A stretch of 64,000 nucleotides of DNA from Gemmatimonadota bacterium (GTDB taxonomy: Bacteria; Gemmatimonadota; Gemmatimonadetes; Longimicrobiales; Gaopeijiaceae): assembly GCA_028873595.1 (NCBI GenBank), contig JAPPOV010000033.1, forward strand, positions 1-64,000, written 5' to 3'. The translations under genes and the position numbers were made by a program. The notes beneath the pieces are model-generated. The model was not told where the DNA came from and ran no database searches. It worked only from the letters and a program-made list of their open reading frames with translations. This document shows positions 6,551-60,535 of the stretch, piece by piece (position 1 is the stretch's first letter; every line of letters starts with the position of its first letter).

Positions 6551-6847
6551 CGAATTCCCCCTGGACATGTTCGGGCCGAGAGGGCGGCTCGCTGCCAATC
6601 CGCCGCCCACGCTGACCTTCAGCCTATCGCCCGTCGGGCCCGATGGGCAACGGCCCGGATCCCTCGCCCAGGCACGGCCCTCAACGGTCCCGGTAGACTC
6701 GTGCCAGATCCCATCGCCGAATACGGTCGGCGAAGAGATCTTCCAGACCCTGAGCTGCGACCCCACCTTGGGTGCCTCATGCAAGAGCTGCGACCCAACC
6801 CTGTGACGTAGCGATTGCCAACTTCCCATGCGAAGGAACTCGGCTCC
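6551..6847. promoter_or_regulatory. Divergent intergenic region with a 16-bp imperfect direct repeat
   Basis: This spacer separates the TPR gene (-) and the large fusion gene (+), so it should hold both promoters. It contains GAGCTGCGACCCCACC at 6752-6767 and GAGCTGCGACCCAACC at 6785-6800, which match at 15 of 16 positions with starts 33 bp apart, about three helical turns. That geometry suits two regulator half-sites on one face of the DNA. The site lies about 50-95 bp before the fusion gene start. No regulator gene is nearby and I see no convincing -35/-10 boxes. Confidence 0.45.
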
Positions 6848-24805: not shown

Positions 24806-26251
24806 ATGAAACGACTTAGAACTACCCTGTTATTTTGCCTAGGCATCCTCGGGTTACCGGCGTGCGCTGACTCGGCAGCAGACCCGCCCTTGAACGTCGT
24901 CGTGGTTCTGATCGACGATATGGGCTGGATGGACACCGGGGTCTACGGGAGTGGTTTTTACGAAACGCCGAATATCGATCGTCTGGCGGCAGAAGGAGCC
25001 CGTTTCACTCAGTTCTATACGGCCAGTTCAGTGTGCTCGCCGACGCGTGCGAGCATCATGACAGGTAAGCATCCGGCCCGGCTGGACATCACCAACTGGA
25101 TCGGCGGGGAGCAGAACGGGCTACTCAACCAGGCGGTCTACCTTCGTCAGCTTCCCGAGAGTGAGACCACGTTCGGCGAGGCCTTTTCGGATGCAGGGTA
25201 CCGGACTGGTTACATCGGCAAGTGGCATCTCGGCCCAGACGGACATCTTCCGGACAGTCAGGGGTTCCAGTTCAGTTTTGCGGTGAACCATGCGGGTCAG
25301 CCGGCCTCGTATTTTCCGCCGTACGCGCGCTCAACCGAGTCACCGACTGACGTTCCCGATCTGTTCGGGGATCCGGAGAATTCCTACCTGACGGACCGGC
25401 TGACGGACGCTTCACTCGATTTCATCGAGGACAATCGCGAGAGACCTTTCCTGCTGGTGTTGTCACATTACGCCGTCCACACCCCGCTTCAGGCACCCCA
25501 GGAGGAGGTCGAGCGCTACGAAGAAAAGGCCGCGGAGCTCGGGCCGGAGCTCGAGGAGCATTACGAAGCTGAGCGGGAGGCGGAAACCAAGCTCCGGCAG
25601 GACCACCCAACCTATGCGGCGATGATCGCGTCGACGGACCGGAGCATAGGTCGAATTCTCGATAAGTTGGTCGAGCTTGGATTGGATGAGCACACGGCTG
25701 TGGTCTTCCTTTCTGATAACGGAGGCTTGAGCACACTCATGCGACGGAGCCCCAACCAGGCCACGGCGAACGTGCCGCTGAGAGCCGGAAAGGGGTGGTT
25801 GTACGAGGGGGGAATCCGCGCTCCGCTGATCGTGCGTTGGCCGGGTGTGATTTCGGCTGGCACCGTGGTGTCTGCCCCTGCGACCAGCAATGACGTGTTC
25901 CCGACACTTCTGGCGCTCGCTGGGTTGCCCGCACGTCCTCAGGATCACGTCGATGGAGTATCACTGCTCGGTGCGATCCAGGAGGATGCAGGAGAGATCC
26001 ACGATGCCCTCTATTGGCACTTCCCCCACTATCATGGGTCAGGTAACCGACCGGGAGGAGCTGTTCGAATCGGGGACCTGAAGTTGATCGAATGGTTCGA
26101 GGACGACGCGGTGGAACTGTACGATCTCTCTGTTGACTTGAGTGAACGTCGAGACCTGTCGAAGGAGCGGCCAGAGGACACTGCCCGGCTCCTGAGTGCC
26201 CTCCGTAGTTGGAGGCGGGAGGTCGACGCGAAGATGCCCACGGGGCGCTGA
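24806..26251 (+). CDS. S1 family sulfatase, lipoprotein
   Basis: A 481-residue arylsulfatase-type enzyme. It has a lipoprotein signal with LGLPAC (C20). Metal residues D37 and D38 lie in VLIDDMGW. The formylglycine motif is CSPTRAS (C77), and GKWHLGP, ALIVRWPG-like and FLSDNGG segments follow. It would hydrolyse sulfate esters outside the cytoplasm after C77 is oxidised to formylglycine by a maturase. No canonical maturase is seen in this window. Its stop shares one base with the start of the LamG/phosphatase gene, so the two probably act on the same kind of substrate. Which sulfated compound it cuts is unknown. Confidence 0.92.
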   Translation: MKRLRTTLLFCLGILGLPACADSAADPPLNVVVVLIDDMGWMDTGVYGSGFYETPNIDRLAAEGARFTQFYTASSVCSPTRASIMTGKHPARLDITNWIGGEQNGLLNQAVYLRQLPESETTFGEAFSDAGYRTGYIGKWHLGPDGHLPDSQGFQFSFAVNHAGQPASYFPPYARSTESPTDVPDLFGDPENSYLTDRLTDASLDFIEDNRERPFLLVLSHYAVHTPLQAPQEEVERYEEKAAELGPELEEHYEAEREAETKLRQDHPTYAAMIASTDRSIGRILDKLVELGLDEHTAVVFLSDNGGLSTLMRRSPNQATANVPLRAGKGWLYEGGIRAPLIVRWPGVISAGTVVSAPATSNDVFPTLLALAGLPARPQDHVDGVSLLGAIQEDAGEIHDALYWHFPHYHGSGNRPGGAVRIGDLKLIEWFEDDAVELYDLSVDLSERRDLSKERPEDTARLLSALRSWRREVDAKMPTGR

Positions 26252-47302: not shown

Positions 47303-47546
47303 GAAGCGTTTCAAGCGAGAGGGCGGCGGGAGAGGGGTGAGATTGGATGCCGAGAGGCTGGTCGTCAATTCGTACTCTCGTCTTCTGACCGCGCGTTCGA
47401 ACGCTGTGCGCGAGGGGGATTCGCGTCGCGCTTGACCACCCAGCTCGTGGCGAACGTCTACCTGCTCGAGCATTCCGGACGCAGCGCCATGAACTCTACC
47501 TCACGGACGGACTGAAGCGCTCTTTCGCATGCTGCGGCACAACCCT

Positions 47547-48521
47547 CTACAGGGAGGCGATCAACTCGTCCTCCCACGACGTATCCGGCCGTGGGCGGTT
47601 CTGCACACGGTACCATTCGAACGTCTCCCGCATGCCGTCTTCGAGCGATCGCAGTTCCATGCCGAGCACATCTCGCGTTCGTTCCCCCAGAGCCGTGATC
47701 GGTGGAATGTCGAGGTAGGCCCCGAAGTAGAGGGGGGGCTGCATGACCTGTCCGCCACCGGCCGTGATCCGGTCACGAGGAACGTGCACCAGCTCCGGCT
47801 CGACCCCCACCACGTCGGCGAGTATGTGAACGAATTCGTTCTGAGTCACCGGGGCGTTAGCGAGGTTGTACGCCTCGCCACCGACGCTCTCGCGTGATGC
47901 CGCACGCAGGGAGGCGTCTGCTACATCGCTTGCGTGCACCCACTGCATTGTGCGTTCACCGTCCTCCGGGACGATGATGGGGCGTCCCGCGATCAGCCGA
48001 TCGAAGAAGAATGATTCTCTGGGAAAGGGGTTGTGTGGTCCGTAGACGAATGCCGGCCGCGTCGTCGAGACGGGTAGCCCATCCGCACGGGCTCGCGCGA
48101 AGAGCGCACGCTCGGTTTCCGCCTTGTGGACGCCGTACACGTTCGGATCGAACGAGGGTCTGAGTTCCGCGTCCTCATCGAAGGGGCCGCCCTCCGGATA
48201 GACGGCGACGCTCGAGACGAACACGTACCGTTGAAGATCCTCGTGCATCAGGACATGGGTCGTGTCCAGGACCTGGGCTGCCGTGGTGCCTCGTTGCCAG
48301 TCATACACGTTGTCGAACACCAGGTCGAAGCGTCGATGTCCGACGGCCGCTCGGACGGCCTCACCATCGTTCCGGTCCGCCAGCAGCTCCTCGACACGAT
48401 GACCGAACGGGGTGCCGGGGCTCCGGTGCATGACGGTGACGTGGTCGCCCCGGGCGAGGAGTGCTGCGACGAGTGGTGGTCCGATCAGGCTGGTGCCTCC
48501 GATGATCAGGGCCTCGGACAT
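47547..48521 (-). CDS. NAD-dependent epimerase/dehydratase family protein
   Basis: A 324-residue extended short-chain dehydrogenase. The NAD loop is IIGGTSLIGPPL (about 6-17). The catalytic pair is a Ser in VSSVAVY and Tyr/Lys in YGVHKAE. It is cytosolic and of normal length. Members act on nucleotide sugars or reduce ketones and flavonoid-like compounds; the pattern here (GGTSLIG, QWVHASDVADA) is that of atypical NAD-dependent epimerases. It is co-directional with, but 244 bp from, the acylase gene. Confidence 0.88.
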   Translation of the reverse strand: MSEALIIGGTSLIGPPLVAALLARGDHVTVMHRSPGTPFGHRVEELLADRNDGEAVRAAVGHRRFDLVFDNVYDWQRGTTAAQVLDTTHVLMHEDLQRYVFVSSVAVYPEGGPFDEDAELRPSFDPNVYGVHKAETERALFARARADGLPVSTTRPAFVYGPHNPFPRESFFFDRLIAGRPIIVPEDGERTMQWVHASDVADASLRAASRESVGGEAYNLANAPVTQNEFVHILADVVGVEPELVHVPRDRITAGGGQVMQPPLYFGAYLDIPPITALGERTRDVLGMELRSLEDGMRETFEWYRVQNRPRPDTSWEDELIASL

Positions 48522-48596
48522 GGGGTTACCGCGTCCTCGGGATCTCGAGTGACTCCGCGTCGCGTGTCCGGGAGTGGGCTACACGGCTGCCTTCGG

Positions 48597-49091
48597 TCAT
48601 TCCTCGCTCCCCAGCGCTGTCCATTCCGCTTCCGTCGCTGCGTCGCGCTGAAACTCCATCATCATCACCCAGCGGTCCTTCTTCACGAGGAGCGCCTCGA
48701 AGTGGACGTACTGAATCGATCCATCGTCCGCGGGTGAAAAGGCCGAGTACCGAAAAATGCCGGTTTCGTGCGCGGTTGAGGCGTCGTTTCTGCGCTCGGA
48801 GAACCGAAAGTCCACCGACGCCTCGAGGAGCCCGGTGCGCGTATCGTCGAACCCCGCTTCCCACCCGGCCAGGGCTTCGGAGATCGGCTGCGTGGTGTCC
48901 CCGAAGATGACCACGGCGTCCGGGTGGTATGTGGCTGCGTACCCGACGAAATCTCCGGACTCCACGGTCCTCGATACCTCGGTCCAGAAGGCGTCCAGCT
49001 CCGCTGTCACTTGCGCGGACAGTCTCGGCCCCGGAACGAGGAGAAGGGCCATGACGAACCCCTTTGTGAACCGACGCCTCGATTGCTTCAT
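48597..49091 (-). CDS. Exported SnoaL/DUF4440-like protein
   Basis: A 164-residue protein from ATG 49091 (GGAG about nine bases upstream). A signal peptide (MKQSRRRFTKGF then MALLLVPG) ends near RLSAQ; the double arginine may make it a Tat substrate. The mature part matches the cone-shaped NTF2/SnoaL fold: AFWTEVSRTVESGDFVGYAATYHPDAVVIFGD and a later EALLVKKDRWVMMMEFQRDA. Such proteins bind small ligands or act as isomerases. No catalytic residue can be assigned. Confidence 0.75.
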   Translation of the reverse strand: MKQSRRRFTKGFVMALLLVPGPRLSAQVTAELDAFWTEVSRTVESGDFVGYAATYHPDAVVIFGDTTQPISEALAGWEAGFDDTRTGLLEASVDFRFSERRNDASTAHETGIFRYSAFSPADDGSIQYVHFEALLVKKDRWVMMMEFQRDAATEAEWTALGSEE

Positions 49092-49169
49092 CTGGAGTGC
49101 TCCGCTGCTGAGATCGCGCTGGACCGATTCCCCTGAGCCCGGCGGGGTTGGGGCGGTGAACGTAATGAC

Positions 49170-49249
49170 TCCATCAGAAGCGGGCACGACGTGTTGGAGT
49201 ACGACTGGGACCGCTACATGGACTTTGCCGACATGCACTTCGGGCGTTA
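49170..49249 (+). pseudogene. Possible 3' remnant of a lost gene
   Basis: In a short open plus-strand frame ending at TAG 49247-49249, the last codons read VLEYDWDRYMDFADMHFGR, which looks far more protein-like than the surrounding spacer. There is no start, ribosome-binding site or upstream coding region, because a stop closes the frame near 49134. It could be the leftover C-terminus of a deleted gene or chance. I cannot name a family. Confidence 0.25.
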
Positions 49250-49293
49250 GTCGGTGACCCCCATCCGGTGTGGAGCTCGAGTGTCCGCTCGCC

Positions 49294-51285
49294 CTAGATC
49301 ACCCGAGGGTTCCCCCCGTCTAGTGGGACCTGGGCACCGGTGGTTTTGGAAAAGTCGGAGCTCAACAGCGACGTCACCGTAGCTGCGACGTCGGCTGAGG
49401 TGAGTTCGACCCCGAGCACGTTGTTCGTCCTGTACTTCTCCGGAGTGACCCCGTACTGCTCCGCCCGTGCGGCGATCACGTCGTGATTCCACGCCCCGGT
49501 GTCGAACACCGCATGCGGGTGGACCGTGTTGACGCGTACCCCGTGCGGCCCGAGTTCCAGTGCCGCGACGCGCGCCAGCTGAGTCATGCCGGCCTTGGCC
49601 GCCGAATACGCTGCGGCTCCGGGTCCCGGTGCAGGGACGTTCTTCGAGGCGACGAAGACGACGGAGGGCGAACATCCCAGCCGGAGGAAGGGCGCGGCTG
49701 CTCGAAGTACAACCAGGTGACCCGTGAGGTTCACGTTCACCGATTTCCCCCATGCCTCGTCGGTCATGTCCTCGATGGTCATGCTGTGGGGAAAGAAGCC
49801 GGCGTTGCATACCAGGATGTCCAGTCCGCCGAAGCGGGATACGGCTGCCTCGACCGATCGGCGGACGTCGAGCGGATCGGTGATGTCCGCTACGACACCG
49901 ACCCGATCTCGACCCTCGAACACGTCACGAACTGCGGGGTCGATATCCGTAGCCACGACAGCCGCTCCGTCATTGAGAAGTGTTTCGGCTACGGCACGCC
50001 CGATTCCACCCGCGGCTCCGGTCACGAGCGCGACCTGTCCGGCGAACCGCCGTCGTGCACCCGCTTTCTTGAGCTTAGCCTGCTCGAGCTCCCAATACTC
50101 GACCTCGAACAGCTCGGACTCTCCGACCGGCCTCCATCCCCCCAGCCGCTCCGACCATTCGATCGCGCGCATCGTGTGTTGGGCGATATCGACCACGGCT
50201 CCGGCTGCTGCCGCCGTATCCCCGAATCCGACCGAGCCGACGTTCGGCCAGACCACCCATCGGGGAGCCCGGTCCAGTTCGACGTGCTCGGGACCGGCAT
50301 TTCGTTCGAAGTAGTCCCGGTATGCGTCGGCGTAGTTGTGAACGGCGGCGGCCCAGTCGCTTTGGGCGATGAGCGGAACCGGTTTCGTGCGGATGGCATG
50401 GTCCGGTGTGAGCGGGCCGCGGCAGGCGATCTCCCCGACTGCTTCCGATCTTGCCATCCGACGTGCTACATCCGAGCGATCGATACGGGCGATCAGCGGA
50501 TGTCCGCGCATGTGACCGACCTCACGCCGCAGTGTCGCCAGCTCAACGAGTGAGTCCGCGTCGAGAGCCTCGCCCTCGCCGGAGACATCATCGAGGCTCT
50601 CTCCCAGAGCGCCGGTGGAGGCCAGGTAATCCTCCGCACGACTCACCACGTCGATCATGCCCTCGTAGCTCGTGCGAGCCGTGTTTCCGAAGGTGAATAC
50701 CCCGTGGTTCATGAGAATGAGGCAGTCGATCTTCGACCAGTCCAGCCCTTTGGTCGCTTCGCTTACCGCTCGTGCCAGCTTGAAGCCCGGCATGACGTAG
50801 GGGATGATCAGGGCGCGCTCACCGTACACCTGGCGGATGCGGTCTTCTCCATTCTCGGTGTTCGTGATCGCGACGACCGCGTCAGCGTGCGTATGGTCGA
50901 CCCAGTCGAACGGGATGATGGCGTGCAGCACCGCCTCGACGGACGGGGTGGGTGCATCGGGGTCGAGCATCGCGGCGCGTTGCGTCAGCACCATCTCCCG
51001 GTCCGAGATCGACTCGAGCTCGGCCATCTTCTTGAGAACATCCATGCGGACCGAGGCAAACCCCGCCTCCTCGATGGACCCCAGATCCCATCCGCTTCCC
51101 TTCACATGCAGCACGTCGTGTTCCGTTCCGAGCGCGTCGTGCACGGTCGCCTTGACCGACGTGTTGCCTCCGCCGTGTAGCACGAGCGACGGGTCCTGTC
51201 CCAGCAGGCGGGAGGTGTAGACGCGCAGCGCGAGTGGCGACTCGAGAAATGCTGCCGCGTCGTGATCGTCCCAGCGAGAGCGCAT
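49294..51285 (-). CDS. Class II aldolase-short-chain dehydrogenase fusion
   Basis: A 663-residue two-domain enzyme. The N-terminal class II aldolase (about 1-400) has GGGNTSVK, HVKGSGWDL, the zinc motif DHTHADAV and MNHGVFTFG. The C-terminal SDR (about 430-663) has GAAGGIGRA, CNAGFF and the YSAAKAG catalytic pair. It matches the bifunctional rhamnulose-1-phosphate aldolase/lactaldehyde dehydrogenase (RhaE-type) architecture: it would split a sugar phosphate and oxidise or reduce the aldehyde product. No rhamnose isomerase or kinase is present, so the substrate may be another deoxy-sugar or sugar acid. It lies 66 bp downstream of the Tm-1-like gene. Confidence 0.9.
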   Translation of the reverse strand: MRSRWDDHDAAAFLESPLALRVYTSRLLGQDPSLVLHGGGNTSVKATVHDALGTEHDVLHVKGSGWDLGSIEEAGFASVRMDVLKKMAELESISDREMVLTQRAAMLDPDAPTPSVEAVLHAIIPFDWVDHTHADAVVAITNTENGEDRIRQVYGERALIIPYVMPGFKLARAVSEATKGLDWSKIDCLILMNHGVFTFGNTARTSYEGMIDVVSRAEDYLASTGALGESLDDVSGEGEALDADSLVELATLRREVGHMRGHPLIARIDRSDVARRMARSEAVGEIACRGPLTPDHAIRTKPVPLIAQSDWAAAVHNYADAYRDYFERNAGPEHVELDRAPRWVVWPNVGSVGFGDTAAAAGAVVDIAQHTMRAIEWSERLGGWRPVGESELFEVEYWELEQAKLKKAGARRRFAGQVALVTGAAGGIGRAVAETLLNDGAAVVATDIDPAVRDVFEGRDRVGVVADITDPLDVRRSVEAAVSRFGGLDILVCNAGFFPHSMTIEDMTDEAWGKSVNVNLTGHLVVLRAAAPFLRLGCSPSVVFVASKNVPAPGPGAAAYSAAKAGMTQLARVAALELGPHGVRVNTVHPHAVFDTGAWNHDVIAARAEQYGVTPEKYRTNNVLGVELTSADVAATVTSLLSSDFSKTTGAQVPLDGGNPRVI

Positions 51286-51351
51286 CTTACACGCCTCTGT
51301 AAGAGAAGTCGTCGTCTCGTGTCCCGGCTGGGACCCAGTCCCGACCTGCGC

Positions 51352-52575
51352 TCATCGGGCTTCGATCATCGCGATGAGCGTCTTGACCGCATGCTCCACG
51401 AAGTGTGGATCTTCGGCGTGGGCGTCCATCTCGATCACCTCCACTGCGTCCGGCAGGCCGGTCCTCAGCGCGTCGAAGAACGCACGATCGCCATCCTCAT
51501 CGTGCAGCGGTTCACCGGGGATCGAGTACCGTCCTACGCCTCGAAGCGGCAGCATCATGACGGCCTGCCCCGTCGTGCTCTGTAACCGTGTACACATCTC
51601 CTGGGCCACGCGTACGAACTCCTCGCGGTTGAGTCGGGGCACGAAGATCACCGGACTGTGGAAGACGTGGAGATGATCTTCGTATTCAGCCGGCACCTGG
51701 TTGGCCTCGACGAACAGGCCCAGATGCTCGGCTCCCCCGGGGCAGATCACCTGCGGAAGGCCGAGGCTGCCGGCTACCGTGAGGCGCTCCGGACCACCCG
51801 CCCTCAGACCTCCGAAAACGTCGTCGGCGATCTCACCCATGGCGTAGTCGAACACGGCGCCGACGACACCTTCCTTCATGAGCTGTTCCATGGCTTGCCC
51901 ACCCGAGCCAACGGCGTGGAACACGACGACGTCGTAGCCAGCTTCGCGGAAGAGTTCCACTGCGAGGTTCGCCCCTTCGGTGAGCACGCCGAGGTTCGTC
52001 ATCGCAATCAGCGGCTTGTCCCCTGCCTCCGGGCGTGCGTCCGATTCCACCTGAGCCATGCCGTGTGCCGCTGCCGCCGCGTTGGCGAGGATCCGAGCCG
52101 TAAACCGGTTTACACCGAGGAGATCCGAGACCGAGAACATCATCGTGATGTCCTTGATCCCCACGAATGGTGAGGTGTCACCGGACGCGACTGTGGACAC
52201 CATGAGCTTGGGGAAGCCGTATGGGAGGGCCTGCATGATCTGCGTGCACGACGATGTTCCCTGCGTCCCTCCGATCCCGAGCACGGCGTGTACTTCGTCC
52301 TTTGCGATGAGGTCGAGGAGGATCCTGGTGGCGCCTGCGACCATCACCGGGCCGGCCTCCTCACGTGTCGGGGATGCAAGAAGCTTCTCCATGGATTCGC
52401 CGCCGGCCGCGGCGACGTCCGCGCGAGTCACGTCAGCCGGGATCGACGGAGTGCCGACCACACCGATATCCATCACCGTGGCGCTCCCGCCCAACCCCTC
52501 GATCTGTTCCTTCAGGTATTGTGCCTCTTCGCTCTTGGTGTCGAGCGTCGCGAGCACGACCACGGTTCTGGCCAT
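51352..52575 (-). CDS. Tm-1-like (UPF0261) protein
   Basis: A 407-residue protein matching the N-terminal half of the tomato Tm-1 resistance protein. Marks are VVLATLDTKSEEAQYLK, LGIGGTQGTSSC, ATVASGDTSPFVG-like VSTVASGDTS, KDITMMFSVSDLLGVNRF and the C-terminal HSPVIFVPRLNREEF. The family's nucleotide-binding site is known from Tm-1, but no reaction is established for bacterial members. It begins 9 bp after the TIM-barrel gene, which corresponds to the C-terminal half of Tm-1, so one functional unit is split over two genes. It is cytosolic. Confidence 0.9.
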   Translation of the reverse strand: MARTVVVLATLDTKSEEAQYLKEQIEGLGGSATVMDIGVVGTPSIPADVTRADVAAAGGESMEKLLASPTREEAGPVMVAGATRILLDLIAKDEVHAVLGIGGTQGTSSCTQIMQALPYGFPKLMVSTVASGDTSPFVGIKDITMMFSVSDLLGVNRFTARILANAAAAAHGMAQVESDARPEAGDKPLIAMTNLGVLTEGANLAVELFREAGYDVVVFHAVGSGGQAMEQLMKEGVVGAVFDYAMGEIADDVFGGLRAGGPERLTVAGSLGLPQVICPGGAEHLGLFVEANQVPAEYEDHLHVFHSPVIFVPRLNREEFVRVAQEMCTRLQSTTGQAVMMLPLRGVGRYSIPGEPLHDEDGDRAFFDALRTGLPDAVEVIEMDAHAEDPHFVEHAVKTLIAMIEAR

Positions 52576-52584
52576 GAGGACCCC

Positions 52585-53445
52585 CTATTCGTCCTTGAAG
52601 GTGAGCGCCGCAAACTCTCGGGCCGCGCCAAGTACCGCCCGCTCGATGGGGAGGCGTTCGGTGGACGAACCTGTCCAGAAGCCGTGTCCCGAGGTGTTGT
52701 GCAGCATGAACTGGGCGTCCTCCGGCGTCTCCATCGCCGCGCCGTGCGCGACGAGAATCGTATCGGGCTCGATTGCACGGATGGCCTTGTACGCCTCCTC
52801 CGTCTTGGCAGCAGTCTCCTCGATCGTCTCGCCGGAGTCGTAGCCCGTGATGCCTCCCTTGGTCGTACCTGCGTGGAAGCAGAAGATGTCAGGACGGGCC
52901 TGCTCGATGATCTGCAGGCTGTCCTCGAGATCGAACGCAAGGCCGACTGTGACCATCCCCATCTCCCGGCCCAGCGCGAGCATGTCGATCTCGTGCTGGA
53001 GCGTGATCCCGCTCTTGGTCAGGACCCGGTAGATGTTGCTGTCCTTGTCCACGTAGCTGATGGATGGACCGATGTTCGACACGGACATGACCCCCATGTC
53101 TTTGAGCCGCTGAAGCACGCTGCGCATATCACGCAGAGGGTCGTTCGCGTTGAGACAGGCACAGATGAAGGCATCGCCTTCGATCGCCGGCAGGATGTCC
53201 TGCTCGGTGTAGTCGAGTGTCTGCTTATTCGAGTCCAGGATGGGCCACATCATCGACATCGTTCCCATTCCGTTCGCCCGAAGGCGGGCGCCAGAGAACG
53301 TGTTGATGCAGTCCACGCCGGCCGTCTCCAGAAGCTTGGCCACCAGGCCACTGCCTGCGCTGGCGATGAAGATGGGCCGACGCTCGTCGATCTTTCGCTT
53401 CAGCCGAGCGAGAATCTCCTCTCGTGTGGGGCGTGGGACGATCAT
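52585..53445 (-). CDS. Phosphoenolpyruvate hydrolase-like TIM barrel, partner of the Tm-1-like protein
   Basis: A 286-residue TIM barrel of the putative phosphonopyruvate/PEP hydrolase family. Typical segments are TREEILARLKRKI, IFIASAGSGLVAKLLE, LDSNKQTL, ACLNANDPLRDM, CFHAGTTKGGITGYDSG and VAHGAAMETPEDAQF. The ATG at 53445 follows the cupredoxin gene stop by one base, and its GGAGG site lies in the end of that gene. In plants and fungi the same domain is fused behind a Tm-1 domain. Members are predicted to cleave or transfer phospho- or keto-acid C-C/C-P bonds; no activity is proven. Confidence 0.88.
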   Translation of the reverse strand: MIVPRPTREEILARLKRKIDERRPIFIASAGSGLVAKLLETAGVDCINTFSGARLRANGMGTMSMMWPILDSNKQTLDYTEQDILPAIEGDAFICACLNANDPLRDMRSVLQRLKDMGVMSVSNIGPSISYVDKDSNIYRVLTKSGITLQHEIDMLALGREMGMVTVGLAFDLEDSLQIIEQARPDIFCFHAGTTKGGITGYDSGETIEETAAKTEEAYKAIRAIEPDTILVAHGAAMETPEDAQFMLHNTSGHGFWTGSSTERLPIERAVLGAAREFAALTFKDE

Positions 53446-53446
53446 G

Positions 53447-56284
53447 TCAGCCCTCCACCGTCATCGTTCCGTGCATCGTGCCCCGATGGCCCGGGAAGGT
53501 GCAAAGGACGTCGTACTCGCCGGGTTCGGTCGGAGCTGTAAAGGTCAGGACCTGGAACGTCCCGTGGTTGAGCAGGTCCGAGGCGACGATGATCTCCGGG
53601 CGTTCGGGAATGAAGCGCTTGGCGAATCCGTCGACCCCGAGCGCATCGGCTGCTGCGCCGATGGTCTCGCCCGACCGTGGATGACCGATGACCAGGTTGT
53701 GGGGCGTGTAATCCTCGTTGTCGAAGAGCAGCGTGACGTCCTGACCCGCCGCGACGGTGAAGGACGTTACGTCGTAACGCATCTCCTCCACGACGGTCTT
53801 GACCACGATCGCGTCACTCCCGAGGTCGGGCCGTTCGTTGCTCCTCTCGTCCTCCTCCGGATCTGAGATCCGTACAGGGGCAGCAGCGGAGTTCTCCCAC
53901 ATCCGTTCCACTCGGCGTGCTGCGATGCGCGCGTCCGGTACCGGCGAGTTCAGAACGAGCTCCAGCAGGTCCTGATTCTCGACGTTGTGCTGCTGGTGGA
54001 CCCAGAGTGCTTCCAGCAGGTGATGCGCGTGACCGGGATCCCCTGGATCCCACTGCGCCATCCACGCCTCGGTCTCTGCGATGACCTCGTCCGTCGGTCG
54101 CTCGGAGAGCTCGATACGGGCCCGGTGGCGGATGCCGTTCACCGGGTGCTGAAGCGCGGTGAGCAGCACGGGAATCGGCTGCCCGTCGATGTCCACGTGG
54201 TCCTGAAGCGCCCGTGCGGGGGCGCTCAGCCGGTAGATACGTCCATGGGAATCATCACGGGCCGGATCCCGGATGTTGTGCTGCATGTGGCCGATGATCG
54301 CATTGGCCCAGTCCGCAACGTAGAGCGCTCCGTCATCTCCGATCTCGAAGTCGGTGGGTCGGAAGTTCGGGTCGGAAGAGACGAGCAGATCCGACGTCTC
54401 CGTACCCGTGACGTCTCCCGTCACGGCGTCGGCCTCGAGTGTGTACTGCTTGATCCCCAGGAAGGCGATCACGTTCAGGATGATGAAATTGCCCTCCATG
54501 CGCGGCGGAAGGTGCGCACTCGAGATGATCCCACTCGATGGGACGGGGCGCACCGTATGCTCGAGAAGTGAGCGCATTTCGAAGGTGCCGTTGCGGTTCG
54601 ACTTGACCTGGAACGCAGCACCGCCCGTCGCGTCGGTCGCATAGTGATAGCCCCAATAATCGAAACTGGTACCGTGCGGATTGGGCGTATTGATCGCGTG
54701 GAAGGAGAACTCGTGCGTGCGCGGATTGAACCGGTACATCCCCGATTCACGAGACTCCTGATTCGCGCTCCACGGCGACTCGACGTTCGAGACGTTGAAG
54801 ATACCCCGCTGGTAGTAGAGGAAGCCGTCGGGACCGTACACGAAATTGTTTGCGGAGTGGTGGGTGTCTGCCGATCCAAGCCCTCCCATGAGCCGGATTC
54901 GGACGTCTGCGACGTCATCGCCGTCGGTGTCCTTCAGGAAGAGCAGGTCGGGTACGGAGGCGACGATCACGCCCCCGTTCCAGAACTCGAAGCCTGTTGG
55001 ATTGTGGACGTATGCGAACGTGATGGCCCGGTCGGCTACACCGTCCCGGTCGTCGTCAGGCAGAATGAGGAGCCGGTCATTCATCTCACCAGTCGGCTCC
55101 CACTTGGGGTACGTGCCCCATGTCGCAGCCCACATACGCCCGCGCGTGTCGACCCCGAGTTGCACCGGGTTCACCAGCTCGGGGAACATCTCCTCCGAGG
55201 CGAAAACGTTCGCACGGAGCCCGGGCTCGAGCGTCATGCGGTCGATGCCCTCCTCGGCCGAGAGGAAGTCCAGCGTACCGAGCTTGCTGACGCCTCCCTG
55301 CTCCTGTGGCTCGTCGAGGTTGGAGATGACCTCGACCGGCGGGGGTACGTTCGAGTCGTCCGGGCTGATGGATTCGCCTTGGGCTGCGGCCCAGATGACG
55401 TGATCCCGGTTTGCGGTCATGTAGTCGAGCTGAATGAGCTCGTTCTGCAGGACGTCGTAGTTGGTCTGCCCGTCGGTAAACGCGAGCGTGGAACGTGTGC
55501 CCCACACGTCGTTGCCATCCGTCGCCCGATAGCGGTTGTGCCAGTGCAGGTTCTTGTCGAGCACCGCCGTCCGGATCGAAGCGAGTCTCTCTTCATCCTC
55601 GGAAGGTGCCTGGCCTGTGACCCTGCGAAGAATGACCTCCGCGATGCGGCGGTTGCCCTCATCGTTGAGGTGTACACCGTTGATGGTCAGCGGCGCTTCG
55701 GTGGAGCCGTAGAGCCCCTGCGATGCCGTGAAGAGGTCGACGTATCCGAGGCCCTGTGCCTCTGCGACCGCACGAGTAGCCTCGGCGTACCGGGCCAGGC
55801 GAGCGTTGTTCTCACTGCCGTCGGGGACGTTGGGGTCGTCCAGATCTTCGTGCGCGATCGGCGAGAAGAGGACGATGTCCGGGGGACCCTGACCCGAGTA
55901 GTCCTGCTCTCGTGTGTGTTCGATCCACTCCGACAACGCGTTGCCGTACCCTGCCGGGTCGTCATCGAACGACTCGTTGTACCCGAACATCGCGAAGATC
56001 GTCGTCGCCTGAGAGAGGCCCAGGTAGTCGTCCGCGGATGGGAAGCCCTCGCTACGGGGCCGGTGATCCACGCGGTCGCCGCTGAAGCCGTGGTTACGGA
56101 TCACGAGCTGGTGGTCGGGCAGAGCCGCCTGCAGGTAGGTCTCAAGCCAGCCGTCGTGCTGCATGCGATCGGGAAGCGCGTTGCCCAGGAGCACGATGTG
56201 CTCACCGGGCTGTATTTCGGCCACGGGTCGGTCACACCCCGCCACAAAGAGGAGGGCCAGGATGAGCGGAATCGGCTTCTTCAT
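53447..56284 (-). CDS. SGNH hydrolase-PVC-type propeller-cupredoxin fusion lipoprotein
   Basis: A 945-residue exported protein; its ATG 56284 overlaps the ThuA stop. The lipoprotein signal ends FVAGC (C17). Residues about 25-225 are an SGNH domain with FGYNES and GVHLND (H205), but the usual GDS nucleophile motif is replaced by LLGNAL. Residues about 350-690 are a propeller of the PVC-type dehydrogenase-like family (HHSANNFVYGPDGFLYY, FEIGDDGALYVADW). Residues about 700-830 are HEAT-like helices. Residues about 845-945 are an azurin-like cupredoxin with a full type 1 copper set (H862, C928, H933, M937). Many homologues end in a CxxCH heme domain instead. It is probably a surface redox enzyme passing electrons to copper. 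Confidence 0.85.
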   Translation of the reverse strand: MKKPIPLILALLFVAGCDRPVAEIQPGEHIVLLGNALPDRMQHDGWLETYLQAALPDHQLVIRNHGFSGDRVDHRPRSEGFPSADDYLGLSQATTIFAMFGYNESFDDDPAGYGNALSEWIEHTREQDYSGQGPPDIVLFSPIAHEDLDDPNVPDGSENNARLARYAEATRAVAEAQGLGYVDLFTASQGLYGSTEAPLTINGVHLNDEGNRRIAEVILRRVTGQAPSEDEERLASIRTAVLDKNLHWHNRYRATDGNDVWGTRSTLAFTDGQTNYDVLQNELIQLDYMTANRDHVIWAAAQGESISPDDSNVPPPVEVISNLDEPQEQGGVSKLGTLDFLSAEEGIDRMTLEPGLRANVFASEEMFPELVNPVQLGVDTRGRMWAATWGTYPKWEPTGEMNDRLLILPDDDRDGVADRAITFAYVHNPTGFEFWNGGVIVASVPDLLFLKDTDGDDVADVRIRLMGGLGSADTHHSANNFVYGPDGFLYYQRGIFNVSNVESPWSANQESRESGMYRFNPRTHEFSFHAINTPNPHGTSFDYWGYHYATDATGGAAFQVKSNRNGTFEMRSLLEHTVRPVPSSGIISSAHLPPRMEGNFIILNVIAFLGIKQYTLEADAVTGDVTGTETSDLLVSSDPNFRPTDFEIGDDGALYVADWANAIIGHMQHNIRDPARDDSHGRIYRLSAPARALQDHVDIDGQPIPVLLTALQHPVNGIRHRARIELSERPTDEVIAETEAWMAQWDPGDPGHAHHLLEALWVHQQHNVENQDLLELVLNSPVPDARIAARRVERMWENSAAAPVRISDPEEDERSNERPDLGSDAIVVKTVVEEMRYDVTSFTVAAGQDVTLLFDNEDYTPHNLVIGHPRSGETIGAAADALGVDGFAKRFIPERPEIIVASDLLNHGTFQVLTFTAPTEPGEYDVLCTFPGHRGTMHGTMTVEG

Positions 56285-57369
56285 CGGTCATTCGCTCCGT
56301 CGTCATCCGCGGGATCCGCGGTCGTCGGTCTGTCAGGTGACATAATGGGCGTTTCGAAGCCCGCCATGTCGGACGGTCGTACTCCTCGGCGGTATCCGTC
56401 GAAGCTGAACATGACGGGATGGTACGGCCCGACAAGGGAGACGTCGCGATCCCCACGGATCTCCTCCTCCAGTCCGAGACTCCAGAGGGAGGCGTTGATC
56501 AGCATCCGCCGAAATCCCTCGTCGAGAAAGTCCTCGGACGCGCCGTGCGTCGTCGTGAACACGCGCCCCGTCTGCCCGCCCGCCCCGGTGTAGCTGCGGG
56601 TCCACGCGACCGGAAGCATTTCCTTCTCGGGGTCCGGCGAAGCGTCGCGCTCCATCCCGTCAAGCACCTGGCCGAGCGCAATGACATCGGCGTCGTCGGG
56701 AGGGTACGCCTGATATCCACCGGACTGCACGTGCATATCCGAAACTCCCCGCAGGATCGGATGGTCCATGCGCCCATCCGCCGGGATCAGCCTCGAGCTC
56801 TGCTCATGGTTCGTGCCGTAATGCCCGACCCAGGTTTCACCGAGTACCTGCTCACCGAATCCCTGCAGATACTCCTCGCCCTCGTAATCCCAGGAGAAGC
56901 GCGCGTGTGGGCCGTCGGTGATCTGGAACGCGTGGGTCGCCGTGCGAAGACCGATGACCGGCCCGCCTCGGTCGAGGTAGTCGACGATGTGCTGCATCTC
57001 GTCTGCGGGGAAATCCTGGAAACGGATTGCCACGATCATGAGATCCGCGGTCTGGAGGGCCTGAAGGCCAGAGATGTTCGAGCTGCCCGGCTCGATGAAC
57101 CCGTCGTCGTCCAGCGTGAAGAAGACGCTGGTGTCGAAGCCGTATCGGCGTGCGAGAATCCGGCCCATCGCGGGCAGGATCTCCTCGGATCGGTATTCGT
57201 GATCACCGGAAATCAGGACGACGTGCATCCCCTCACCCGGGCCCGTGTCGCCTTCGTACGTCACCCGGTGAGGGTGAGCCGCTGCGGGCGATGTGCGATC
57301 TGCGTCGCCGCAGGCGGACAGCGCCATTAGGAACACCGCCATCGTAAATGGGCTGTGCATGAATTTCAT
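56281..57369 (-). CDS. ThuA-like lipoprotein
   Basis: A 362-residue protein of the ThuA (trehalose utilisation, glutamine-amidotransferase-like) fold. The signal peptide has lipobox MALSAC (C20). Family segments are VVLISGDHEYRSEE, LQTADLMIVAIRFQDFP, YLDRGGPVIGLRTATHAF, GHYGTNHEQSSRL and the C-terminal TTHGASEDFLDEGFRRMLINASLW. Family members are exported and bind sugar-like ligands; catalysis is unproven. It is the first gene of a five-gene minus-strand operon and is divergent from the third sulfatase across about 128 bp. Confidence 0.88.
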   Translation of the reverse strand: MKFMHSPFTMAVFLMALSACGDADRTSPAAAHPHRVTYEGDTGPGEGMHVVLISGDHEYRSEEILPAMGRILARRYGFDTSVFFTLDDDGFIEPGSSNISGLQALQTADLMIVAIRFQDFPADEMQHIVDYLDRGGPVIGLRTATHAFQITDGPHARFSWDYEGEEYLQGFGEQVLGETWVGHYGTNHEQSSRLIPADGRMDHPILRGVSDMHVQSGGYQAYPPDDADVIALGQVLDGMERDASPDPEKEMLPVAWTRSYTGAGGQTGRVFTTTHGASEDFLDEGFRRMLINASLWSLGLEEEIRGDRDVSLVGPYHPVMFSFDGYRRGVRPSDMAGFETPIMSPDRPTTADPADDDGANDR

Positions 57370-57497
57370 GTTCGATGATGGCTCGAGGGGTGCCTCTGCG
57401 GACGGTGCGCCGATAATGACGACTCAAGGGTGCGAAGACCAGCGAAGCCCCTGTCGGGTGCTCGCCTCCGGCCGTGATGGAGGCTATTTCAGTGAGA

Positions 57498-59459
57498 ATG
57501 ACTCCGTCGAGACGAGATTTTCTGCGCTGTACCGGGGCTGCGGGCCTGTCGATGACCGCCGCCTCCTGGTTCGCGTCGTGTGCCCCTCGGCCACGGCCGA
57601 CGAACATCGTCCTGATTTTCACCGACGATCAGGGGCACGGAGACATCGGTGTGTACGGCGCCGAGGGGTTCAGCACGCCCCACCTCGACCGGCTGGCCGG
57701 GGAGGGCATGCGCTTCACGGACTTCTATGCCTCGGAGGGCGTGTGCTCGGCATCGCGCGCCTCGCTCCTGACCGGATGCTATGCACCCCGCGTGTCGATT
57801 TTCGGGGCGCTGAGTCCGGGGTCGCAGGTCGGCCTTCACCCGGACGAAGTCACCATCGCCGAATTGCTCAAGCCGCTCGGCTACGCGACTGCAGCGGTCG
57901 GTAAGTGGCACCTCGGACACGGGCGTCAGTTCTTGCCGCTGCAACACGGTTTCGACGAGTACTTCGGCTTACCGTACTCCAACGACATGTGGCCTGTCGA
58001 CTATGACGGCAACCCAGTCGAGGAGGGTGGAAAAAGCGCCTACCCGCCACTCCCTCTTATCGAAGGTGACGAGGTGATCGAGACCGTCGACGAGCTCGCG
58101 GACCAGGACCTCCTTACGACGCGCTACACGGAACGGGCCGTACGCTTCGTCGATCGTCACGCGGACGGACCCTTCTTCCTCTACCTCGCCCATTCGATGC
58201 CACATGTGCCCCTGGGTGTCTCGGATCGATTCCGAGGCTCGAGTGAGCAGGGTATGTACGGCGACGTAATCCAGGAGATCGACTGGTCGGTCGGTCAGGT
58301 CCTTGAGGCGCTGGAGCGCAACGGCGTCGAGGACGACACGCTCGTCATCTTCACGAGCGACAACGGCCCGTGGCTCAACTACGGAAACCACGGGGGCTCT
58401 ACCGGAGCGCTGCGTGAGGGGAAGGGGACCGCCTTCGAGGGCGGTCCACGCGTTCCGGCGATCATGCGCTGGCCCGGACGGATTCCAGCTGGGGTGGTCT
58501 GTAACCGGATGGCATCGACGATCGACGTGCTCCCGACCGTGGCCGCGATCACCGGAGCCTCCCTGCCGACCCAGCCGATCGACGGGGTCAGCATCCTGCC
58601 GCTCCTCCTCGAAGAGGACGGTGCAGACCCGCGACAAGAGTTCTGGTTCTATTACACGGGAGAGTTGCGTGCCGTGAGAGAGGGCCGGTGGAAACGGGTC
58701 TTCACGCATCGCACCCGTTCGTATGTGGGGGTCGAGCCCGGCATGGACGGGTACCCCGGGCCGTATGCGTTCCCGACGGTGCCCGACGCGCTGTATGATC
58801 TGGAGGCCGACGTCGGGGAAACCGTGGACGTTTCGGCCGACTATCCCGATGTCGTGGCGCGACTCGAGGCGATCGGGGAGCTAGCCCGTGCAGCTCTCGG
58901 TGATCGACTGATGCAGCGCACGGGCACGGAGGTTCGCCCTCCCGGGCGCCTGTCTCTCGGTCGACCGGACACGCTCGCCCATGCCGCTGTGGGCGGCGTC
59001 GTCATCGAGGCCACACCGACGGATGTGCGATACCCCGGAGCAGGGCCGGATGCGCTGGTTGACGGACGTGTGGGGTCGGGCGACTTCCGAGATGGACGAT
59101 GGCTCGCGTACGACGGCGTGGACTTCGAGGCAACGCTGGACCTTGGTACTCCTCAGACCGTCGCTCGCGTAGGCATCGACTGTCTGCAGGTTCAGTCCGC
59201 CTGGATTCTGCTGCCCCGCGCCATACGCGCCAGCGTGTCCACAGACGGTCAGGCCTGGCGCGATCTGCCCGCGCTCATGGTCGCCCCGGAGGCAGACGAC
59301 CGCGTCGAGGCACGACTTCTCTCCGTCGACGTTGGGGGCGCGCCCGTTCGATATATCCGAGTCCACGCCACCAACACCCAGCCCCTCCCTGAATGGCACC
59401 CTGGAGCGGGTGAGACGGGTTGGATTTTCGTGGACGAGATCGTCGTGGACACCACGTAG
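57498..59459 (+). CDS. Tat-exported S1 sulfatase with C-terminal F5/8 type C domain
   Basis: A 653-residue enzyme with Tat leader PSRRDFLRCTGAAG. The sulfatase domain (about 30-480) has D43/D44 in IFTDDQG, formylglycine motif CSASRAS (C83), GKWHLGHG and IFTSDNGPW. Alanine at position 3 of the CxAxR motif is allowed. Residues about 490-653 resemble a discoidin/F5/8 C carbohydrate-binding domain (GRWLAYDGVDFEATLDLG, VSTDGQAWRDL, VRYIRVHA). The binding domain should hold the enzyme on a glycan. Start 57498 keeps the Tat motif near the N-terminus; an in-frame GTG at 57474 is possible, and neither has a strong ribosome-binding site. Confidence 0.88.
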   Translation: MTPSRRDFLRCTGAAGLSMTAASWFASCAPRPRPTNIVLIFTDDQGHGDIGVYGAEGFSTPHLDRLAGEGMRFTDFYASEGVCSASRASLLTGCYAPRVSIFGALSPGSQVGLHPDEVTIAELLKPLGYATAAVGKWHLGHGRQFLPLQHGFDEYFGLPYSNDMWPVDYDGNPVEEGGKSAYPPLPLIEGDEVIETVDELADQDLLTTRYTERAVRFVDRHADGPFFLYLAHSMPHVPLGVSDRFRGSSEQGMYGDVIQEIDWSVGQVLEALERNGVEDDTLVIFTSDNGPWLNYGNHGGSTGALREGKGTAFEGGPRVPAIMRWPGRIPAGVVCNRMASTIDVLPTVAAITGASLPTQPIDGVSILPLLLEEDGADPRQEFWFYYTGELRAVREGRWKRVFTHRTRSYVGVEPGMDGYPGPYAFPTVPDALYDLEADVGETVDVSADYPDVVARLEAIGELARAALGDRLMQRTGTEVRPPGRLSLGRPDTLAHAAVGGVVIEATPTDVRYPGAGPDALVDGRVGSGDFRDGRWLAYDGVDFEATLDLGTPQTVARVGIDCLQVQSAWILLPRAIRASVSTDGQAWRDLPALMVAPEADDRVEARLLSVDVGGAPVRYIRVHATNTQPLPEWHPGAGETGWIFVDEIVVDTT

Positions 59460-59638
59460 ATCCGATTCGGGCTCGGACATCGCGAGGCATGTGAGGCCCT
59501 CGTAGGTCGGTCCAGGATGAGTCATATCGTTCGACTTGGTTCGCCGACGCTTGTGACACATTCGCGACCCCCATAGCCTCCTCCCAGCAAGAGAGCGCTC
59601 CCCTCCTGCATTCACACCTACCACCACACAGCCTCTCC

Positions 59639-60535
59639 ATGGTTTCCGAGATCTTCGATGCGTCAGCCTGGCGCGAAGTCCCCGGCTTCGAGGACTTGAG
59701 CGACATCACATACCACGGCTCACTCGATGGAAAGACGGTCAGGATCGCGTTCGATCGCGCCGACTGCCGGAACGCGTTCCGTCCACGGACGGTCGATGAG
59801 TTGTATCGGACGCTGGAGCACGCGAGAACAACGTCGACGGTCGGCTGCGTGCTTCTGACCGGAAACGGGCCTTCGCCAAAGGACGGTGGCTGGGCTTTTT
59901 CGTCCGGGGGTGATCAGCGCATCCGTGGGGCGGACGGATACAAATACGAGGGAGGGGAAGGGGAGATCGATCCAGCCCGGCTCGGGCGGCTGCACATCCT
60001 CGAGGTTCAGCGACTCATTCGCTTCATGCCGAAGATCGTGATCGCGGTGGTTCCGGGCTGGGCGGCCGGCGGGGGTCACAGCTTGCACGTCGTCTGTGAT
60101 CTGACGCTCGCCAGCAGGGAACATGCGCGGTTCAAACAGACGGACCCGGATGTGGCCAGCTTCGACAGCGGATATGGGTCCGCGTACCTCGCTCGTATGG
60201 TCGGGCAGAAGCGGGCTCGAGAGATCTTCTTCCTCGGCTTCGACTACACGGCCGATGAAGCGCTGGCCATGGGAATGGTCAATGCGTCGGTCCCCCACAA
60301 CGAACTCGAAGAGACTGCGTTGAGCTGGGCCCGCACGATCAACGAAAAGAGTCCGACGGCGATGCGCATGCTCAAATACGGGTTCAACCTGATCGACGAC
60401 GGCCTGGTGGGTCAGCAGATGTTTGCCGGGGAGGCCACGCGTCTCGCGTACGGTACGGATGAGGCGCGAGAAGGTCGGGATGCATTCGTCGAAAAGCGGG
60501 ACAAGGATTTCTCCCGCTTTCCGTGGCACTATTGA
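59639..60535 (+). CDS. menB: 1,4-dihydroxy-2-naphthoyl-CoA synthase
   Basis: A 298-residue crotonase-fold enzyme of menaquinone synthesis that closes the second ring of the naphthoquinone from succinylbenzoyl-CoA. The sequence follows MenB closely: WAFSSGGDQRIRGADGYKY, AVVPGWAAGGGHSLHVVCDLTLASREHA, FKQTDPDVASFDSGYGSAYLARMVGQKRAREIFFL and the ending FVEKRDKDFSRFPWHY. No other men gene is in the window, so the pathway genes are scattered. ATG 59639 lacks a Shine-Dalgarno motif. Menaquinone would serve the succinate dehydrogenase at 14200-17581. Confidence 0.95.
   Translation: MVSEIFDASAWREVPGFEDLSDITYHGSLDGKTVRIAFDRADCRNAFRPRTVDELYRTLEHARTTSTVGCVLLTGNGPSPKDGGWAFSSGGDQRIRGADGYKYEGGEGEIDPARLGRLHILEVQRLIRFMPKIVIAVVPGWAAGGGHSLHVVCDLTLASREHARFKQTDPDVASFDSGYGSAYLARMVGQKRAREIFFLGFDYTADEALAMGMVNASVPHNELEETALSWARTINEKSPTAMRMLKYGFNLIDDGLVGQQMFAGEATRLAYGTDEAREGRDAFVEKRDKDFSRFPWHY

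Follow-up and report, generated by a model that had tools for sequence, protein, structure and literature searches.

We analysed a 64,000-nucleotide stretch of a Gemmatimonadota genome (contig JAPPOV010000033.1 of assembly GCA_028873595.1), hereafter the window, and found that five adjacent genes on its minus strand form a genuine, recurrent module (Table 1). In transcription order, they encode a ThuA-family lipoprotein, a second exported lipoprotein built around a propeller, a TIM barrel, its Tm-1-like UPF0261 partner and a fusion of a class II aldolase with a short-chain dehydrogenase (SDR). The arrangement is beyond chance: the first four genes recur in the same order in six other genomes, and the linkages are specific to one clade of the Tm-1/TIM pair when compared with 78 loci outside it. 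We propose, with a probability of roughly 45%, that the operon is catabolic and serves the use of an oxidised sugar. The pair would probably act as a kinase and its partner in such a pathway, which would end in aldolase cleavage.

By searching stretches of mostly 9-10 kb on each side of the pair with profiles built from the loci (the short ones including L023, L031, L111, L115, L118, L121 and L123), we found a ThuA gene near the pair in 17 of the 40 clade genomes besides the window and in none of the 78 non-clade loci. The propeller gene was found in 17/40 clade genomes (16 found with the profile and the partial gene of L129) against 2/78 non-clade loci, both with partial matches, and the aldolase/SDR fusion in 8/40 against 0/78. 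At least one of the three was near the pair in 25/40 clade genomes and in 2/78 non-clade loci (Fisher p = 4e-13, kinship ignored). The order ThuA-propeller-TIM-Tm-1, on one strand and with short or overlapping junctions, was conserved in six genomes (L017, L018/L019, L021, L124, L125 and L126, L018/L019 being a single locus divided by a contig end), and a fusion with at least 40% identity lay upstream of the TIM gene in eight (L023-L026, L029, L106, L107 and L122). One of these is the strain-level genome of Sediminicola luteus HQA918 (L025), in which the aldolase-TIM-Tm-1 core is present. Thus, when we checked whether the five families are neighbours in related genomes, ThuA, propeller, TIM/Tm-1 and fusion were seen to recur together across phyla.

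The clade comprises 41 genomes including the window, from Gemmatimonadota, Acidobacteriota, Bacteroidota, Planctomycetota, one Pseudomonadota metagenome-assembled genome (MAG) and one further bacterium. In a quick tree of 80 Tm-1 rows, its 39 rows form one side of a branch with a Shimodaira-Hasegawa-like approximate likelihood ratio (SH-aLRT) support of 99; 37 of 117 rows (every other distant row) were omitted from this tree, L115 being left out as a fragment and L020 as a duplicate. TIM identity is 67-84% inside the clade, and the next best match reached at most 40% where the searches listed weak matches too; two of the searches listed strong matches alone. The pair is rare: with the window TIM as query (at least 67% identity), clade members were found in 20/343 Planctomycetota (G788 in two fragments), 5/297 Acidobacteriota and 3/296 Bacteroidota genomes, query genomes counted, and the window-TIM search gave 3/298 genomes of one bacteroidotal order, query genome counted. 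UPF0261 itself was found in 4/298 genomes of a Gemmatimonadota sample, own genome counted; the best 80 of 581 loci of the UPF0261 alignment scan of genome contigs were used.

The composition of the exported propeller protein suggests what the module might do. All 17 propeller proteins examined, window counted, carry an electron carrier, either a type-1 copper loop only (8, including the window), a CxxCH motif only (3, from Saprospiraceae) or both (6, from Planctomycetota). Such a carrier swap on one propeller is expected of a dehydrogenase; since a cupredoxin, a cytochrome c or both are joined to it, the lipoprotein is therefore probably an exported dehydrogenase. In the window cupredoxin, the loop C-x(4)-H-x(3)-M reads CTFPGHRGTM, whose residues we take to have the roles known from type-1 copper sites. 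TIGR02604 (PVC-type heme-binding) scored 188.1 bits (cut-off 122.2); CxxCH is absent from the window protein and present in 9/16 relatives. The motifs DTHH and FRP are invariant in the 17 covering rows and NPHG is nearly so. By using Foldseek with a model of the protein (6 rows, 3 with the copper domain), we found SMP30/gluconolactonase-type propellers, the pyrroloquinoline quinone (PQQ) domain of the PQQ-dependent pyranose dehydrogenase of Coprinopsis cinerea (6jt5) and SGNH esterases; the modelled fold resembles those of 6jt5 and SMP30 in the propeller only. Export is a further shared feature, and in the window protein the propeller is joined to an electron carrier. No sequence match to the propeller region was found among the best 60 PDB sequences. 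Together, the interchangeable carriers and the pyranose dehydrogenase match, the latter from a low-confidence model, bear out an earlier note on this DNA, made from sequence alone, which had called the exported protein redox-type. Its SGNH label, which suggests an esterase, did not hold in that sense: block I reads GNAL or similar and the nucleophile serine is missing in 17/18 sequences, window included (Ser in L128 only), so that we rejected an active esterase for the window protein. No paper on DUF7133 propellers turned up in our literature search, and the gene set would give them a pathway context.

The propeller also accompanies the pair at the level of whole genomes. A propeller match extending into the SGNH part was found in 28 of the 32 clade genomes tested (of 41) and in 1 of 80 controls (Fisher p = 5e-21, kinship ignored), mostly as one copy per clade genome (two in G303 and G1020). 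Propeller-only matches were found in the clade genomes G1075 and G764 and none in G300 and G310; among controls, G814 has SGNH-reaching genes and G761 propeller-only matches. The controls were 40 Planctomycetota and 40 Gemmatimonadota genomes without the pair, with no Bacteroidota or Acidobacteriota, and at most 10 propeller candidates per genome were scored. In 18 of the 28 genomes, window counted, the propeller lies within 10 kb of the pair, where about 0.14 would be expected. Given that the propeller occurs in 28/32 clade genomes, adjacent or not, against 1/80 controls, we argue for a functional link between the exported and cytosolic halves. The same figures speak against two merely neighbouring functions, that is an exported redox module of ThuA and propeller with a surface or respiratory role and a separate housekeeping Tm-1/TIM enzyme, joined only by selection on expression. 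This alternative, which we consider unlikely, draws on the 15/40 clade genomes (several with short contigs) that have none of the three partners near the pair and on the non-clade pair, for which no dominant partner was found among 150 neighbour open reading frames (ORFs) of 52 loci, taken from 335 ORFs selected at 75 loci; the commonest family there was a xylose-isomerase-like TIM with five members. The joint sugar pathway that the earlier note had drawn from the gene order is a reasonable idea: the recurrent neighbourhood agrees with it, and it is plausible that an intermediate is a phosphorylated sugar or sugar acid.

The cytosolic half is predicted to begin with a phosphorylation. The AlphaFold2 model of the Tm-1-like protein (predicted local distance difference test score, pLDDT, 92) matches tomato Tm-1 and PDB 9mpy, which by its entry title is the UPF0261 protein Saro_1862 of Novosphingobium aromaticivorans with bound acetovanillone. 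Saro_1862 shares fold and family with the window protein, and of the 69 positions that are invariant or almost so in a 39-row clade alignment it retains 52; it differs in its aromatic ligand and is about 30% identical. Acetovanillone catabolism in this species begins with MarK, a single-component kinase, according to PMC13101465. Saro_1862 is very probably MarK, which is our own reading, and the Tm-1-like protein is a probable small-molecule kinase by homology. The earlier statement that the pair has no proven bacterial reaction is therefore outdated. Beyond this one aromatic case, our literature searches found no metabolic role for the Tm-1 pair and no assay underlying the phosphoenolpyruvate (PEP) hydrolase name of PF09370.

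Given this ligand, we weighed an aromatic-ketone (lignin-monomer) pathway, in which the Tm-1-like protein would phosphorylate a phenol, as presumably does Saro_1862/MarK, and the exported redox lipoprotein would oxidise a phenolic side chain. Besides the bound acetovanillone, it is favoured by other kinases that start phenol pathways, as described in PMC12167813, and by a non-clade Thermomicrobium pair with PEP-binding and PEP-utilising genes downstream, reminiscent of HpeHI-type dikinases. However, no biotin carboxylase, coenzyme A ligase or HpeHI-like dikinase was noticed near clade pairs (by eye and with Pfam, on selected ORFs), the partners are of sugar type (ThuA, class II aldolase, SMP30/pyranose-dehydrogenase fold) and the identity to Saro_1862 is low, so that we find this pathway very improbable.

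The fusion suggests the end of the pathway. It passes the equivalog cut-off of NF006196 (PRK08324-type; cut-off 831 bits). RhaEW, the rhamnulose-1-phosphate aldolase/lactaldehyde dehydrogenase, is likewise a class II aldolase-SDR fusion (PMC3870299); the window protein, however, scores 430.1 bits with the RhaEW model TIGR02632, below its equivalog cut-off of 567.75, and we rejected this identity. The window fusion has the motifs HTH, HG and YxxxK; HTH or HSH with a later HG is found in the 12 aligned members. The HxH and distal His are presumably metal ligands. Orthologues with 59-60% identity lie away from the pair locus in G106 and G108. In G108, the region holds two DUF2961 genes, a monosaccharide-type ATP-binding cassette (ABC) transporter and, about 9 kb off, a ribulokinase-like gene; in G310, a methylthioribose-phosphate isomerase gene stands beside a homologue with 38% identity. 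These two neighbourhoods hint at pentulose or deoxypentulose phosphates as substrates. A ribulokinase-like gene also diverges from the operon in G536. A second fusion with 31-32% identity occurs in G301, G302 and G536, and the only one of G305 is equally distant and adjoins rhamnose-type genes (by sequence look). A search for FGGY kinases in 21 clade genomes gave a single one for the window genome (94.6% complete), which scores as a glycerol kinase, and none for G968. Since this is so, a Tm-1-type kinase could supply the phosphate for the class II aldolase, FGGY being the sole kinase family searched. L032 and L122 have FGGY kinases close to the pair, and so does the aldolase locus of G108 nearby.

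By combining these predictions, we can propose the following route. First, the propeller lipoprotein would bind its substrate outside the cytoplasm, perhaps with the nucleophile-less SGNH domain as a carbohydrate-binding part, and the propeller would oxidise it, electrons leaving via the built-in blue-copper domain. Second, ThuA might act on the oxidised product, of keto or lactone type, which would be taken up by a transporter encoded outside the operon. Third, the Tm-1-like protein would phosphorylate the intermediate with ATP, and the TIM barrel might isomerise or cleave the phosphorylated keto-acid or sugar. Finally, the aldolase domain would split a ketose phosphate into triose phosphate and a short aldehyde, which the SDR domain would oxidise or reduce. 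We observed the gene order, the domains, the recurrent and clade-specific linkage and the carrier exchange; the dehydrogenase, kinase and aldolase chemistry follows homology; the substrate and the ThuA and TIM steps are guesses, and we infer the order of the steps. That this is an undescribed sugar pathway of oxidation outside and phosphorylation inside, with the propeller dehydrogenase and its swappable copper/heme carriers feeding a Tm-1-like kinase and a TIM barrel that work as one ATP-dependent enzyme, is a tentative and somewhat doubtful idea. If true, a carbohydrate role would be the original function of the Tm-1 pair, whose fused form land plants carry. No publication describing the gene set was recognised in the open-licence literature; with the pair tied in this clade to ThuA, an aldolase and a defined exported protein of oxidase-like type, the reactions open to assay form a short list.

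In another scheme, Tm-1/TIM would be a C-C cleaving or repair enzyme with ATP in a regulatory role, and another kinase would phosphorylate the aldolase substrate. The naming of PF09370 after its resemblance to PEP hydrolase points that way, as do the FGGY kinases that adjoin the operon in L032 and L122. On the other side, the stretches fetched for 23/78 non-clade Tm-1 loci show no match to the TIM (some of them short, and the profile clade-built), so that Tm-1 can stand alone, and the MarK link favours phosphoryl transfer. We judge this scheme unlikely.

Several observations weigh against the use of an oxidised sugar as the role of the operon. First, among the 41 clade genomes only the window has all five genes in this exact order, with the fusion last; of the order set out in the earlier note, the four-gene part recurs elsewhere and the downstream place of the fusion does not. 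Second, the fusion (at least 40% identity) is present in 11/41 clade genomes and in at least 8/80 controls (p = 0.03; a lower bound, since no more than 15 candidates were scored in each control genome), and is therefore an optional partner of the pair. Strict co-occurrence of aldolase and pair was thus rejected; G141, which lacks the pair, has a fusion with 58% identity, and G951 and G786 carry a homologue of the fusion's dehydrogenase half that consists of the SDR alone (50-53% identity). Third, plain tblastn gave weak propeller matches (26-31% identity) in 5/78 non-clade loci, and the 80 controls, from two phyla and without any Tm-1/TIM pair, are silent on the propeller in genomes with a non-clade pair. 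Fourth, the propeller-protein model is of low confidence (mean pLDDT 63.7, cupredoxin end below 50). Finally, the operon genes include no transporter or sugar isomerase, there would be no need for the FGGY kinases of L032 and L122 if the phosphate already comes from Tm-1, and the sole UPF0261 ligand we know of is a phenol, not a sugar.

ThuAB are grouped with 3-keto-glycoside pathways. In these pathways (DUF1080, LacABC), as described in PMC9007349, a sugar is oxidised outside the cytoplasm, as proposed for the window; they differ in that the window operon has no DUF1080 or LacABC/ThuB-like gene, and a probable kinase and an aldolase instead. Neither a 3-dehydrogenase nor a DUF1080 hydrolase was found with Pfam/NCBIfam among the five operon and four flanking genes.

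Gene order, domains and junctions (a 4-bp overlap, then 1, 9 and 66 bp) were as the earlier note had described them, ORF coordinates and Pfam/NCBIfam being in agreement. Lipobox-like N-termini were seen by eye in the translations of ThuA (LSAC) and of the 945-aa protein (VAGC), and no signal peptide was evident on inspection by eye, without a predictor, in the TIM, UPF0261 and aldolase/SDR proteins. In consensus scans of 47500-59700, no sigma-70-like promoter came up, and the one terminator-like site on the minus strand (49815-49799) lies inside the last gene, with none in the gene gaps. Transcription of the five genes as one unit is compatible with these scans, which do not prove it.

Table 1. 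The five-gene operon in transcription order (window positions)
Feature	Position	Strand	Details
ThuA-family lipoprotein, first gene	56281..57369	minus	362 aa; PF06283 45.9 bits (cut-off 33.4)
Exported lipoprotein: nucleophile-less SGNH, DUF7133/TIGR02604 propeller and azurin-like cupredoxin	53447..56284	minus	945 aa; Pfam, NCBIfam
TIM barrel PF09370 (PEP hydrolase-like), partner of the Tm-1-like protein	52585..53445	minus	286 aa; PF09370 196 bits (cut-off 33.8), profile 1-266 of 267; PDB 2p10 relative
Tm-1-like UPF0261 protein, probable small-molecule kinase	51352..52575	minus	407 aa; both UPF0261 domains, full length (PF06792 194 bits, PF23189 196.2 bits, cut-off 27 each); relatives 9mpy, tomato Tm-1
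66-bp spacer between Tm-1-like and aldolase genes	51286..51351	minus	terminator-like site not found
Class II aldolase/SDR fusion	49294..51285	minus	663 aa; NF006196 885.6 bits

Other genes lie around some of the clade pairs. Alpha/beta hydrolases adjoin the pair or the fusion in nine loci, one family in L023, L024, L032, L112 and L122 and another in L119, L120, L121 and L127. A TonB-dependent-receptor gene adjoins ThuA in the bacteroidotal loci L128 (by Pfam) and L129 (by clustering), a separate, distant class II aldolase takes the place of the fusion in L032, and the surroundings of the pair in L022 or L026 hold Gfo/Idh/MocA, SMP30 and xylose-isomerase-like genes. The neighbours in L026 include a xylose-isomerase-like and, by sequence look, a DUF1080-like gene, which recalls the 3-keto-glycoside pathways. 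In L112 (6148-7062, genome G951), an SDR-only homologue of the fusion, with no detectable aldolase domain, lies near the pair.

A sulfatase gene with an F5/8 type C domain (57474-59459) diverges from the operon, and another lies at 24806-26251 of the window. The former had been read as a hint at a sulfated glycan, which found no support: none of the stretches from the six same-order genomes has a match to it, and we rejected it as a member of the system. Its matches near other clade loci (4/40 genomes: L029, L031, L110 and L116) and another sulfatase-like ORF in L104 are weak evidence, since sulfatases are numerous in Planctomycetota; 2/78 non-clade loci have matches as well. Just past the sulfatase, a MenB-type naphthoyl-CoA synthase (59639-60535) apparently has no relation to the operon. 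Elsewhere in the window (6815-11311), a 1498-aa ORF product combines PD40 propeller repeats, an amidohydrolase and a beta-lactamase-type domain.

Tm-1 pairs occur in bacteria, archaea and fungi, and the two domain families that are split in the window are fused in land plants, according to PMC5028733. The score of tomato Tm-1 is 304 bits with a Pirellulaceae protein from outside the clade (L060, 10001-11188), 141 with the window protein and 143 with L028; an origin of the plant gene as an offshoot of the clade is thus unsupported, and by these scores the L060 protein is a better bacterial proxy for it than the window protein. Six Poribacteria loci (L038, L040, L043, L045, L048 and L058) have UPF0261 genes, and tblastn gave no match to the TIM in the stretches fetched for them. 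Among the 10 of 341 records of plasmid-borne Tm-1 genes examined, no annotated aldolase fusion was seen nearby; cupin, Gfo/Idh/MocA and sugar or branched-chain ABC genes were near several. A Terrarubrum plasmid (L013, 1719-11062) carries two Tm-1/TIM pairs and a 616-aa protein annotated as PEP hydrolase, in a region that also holds sugar-ABC, Gfo/Idh/MocA and cupin genes. Finally, in a Caldilineales MAG (L033, 1687-3033), a RuBisCO-large-chain-like gene adjoins the Tm-1/TIM pair, perhaps a second sugar-acid-phosphate context for it.

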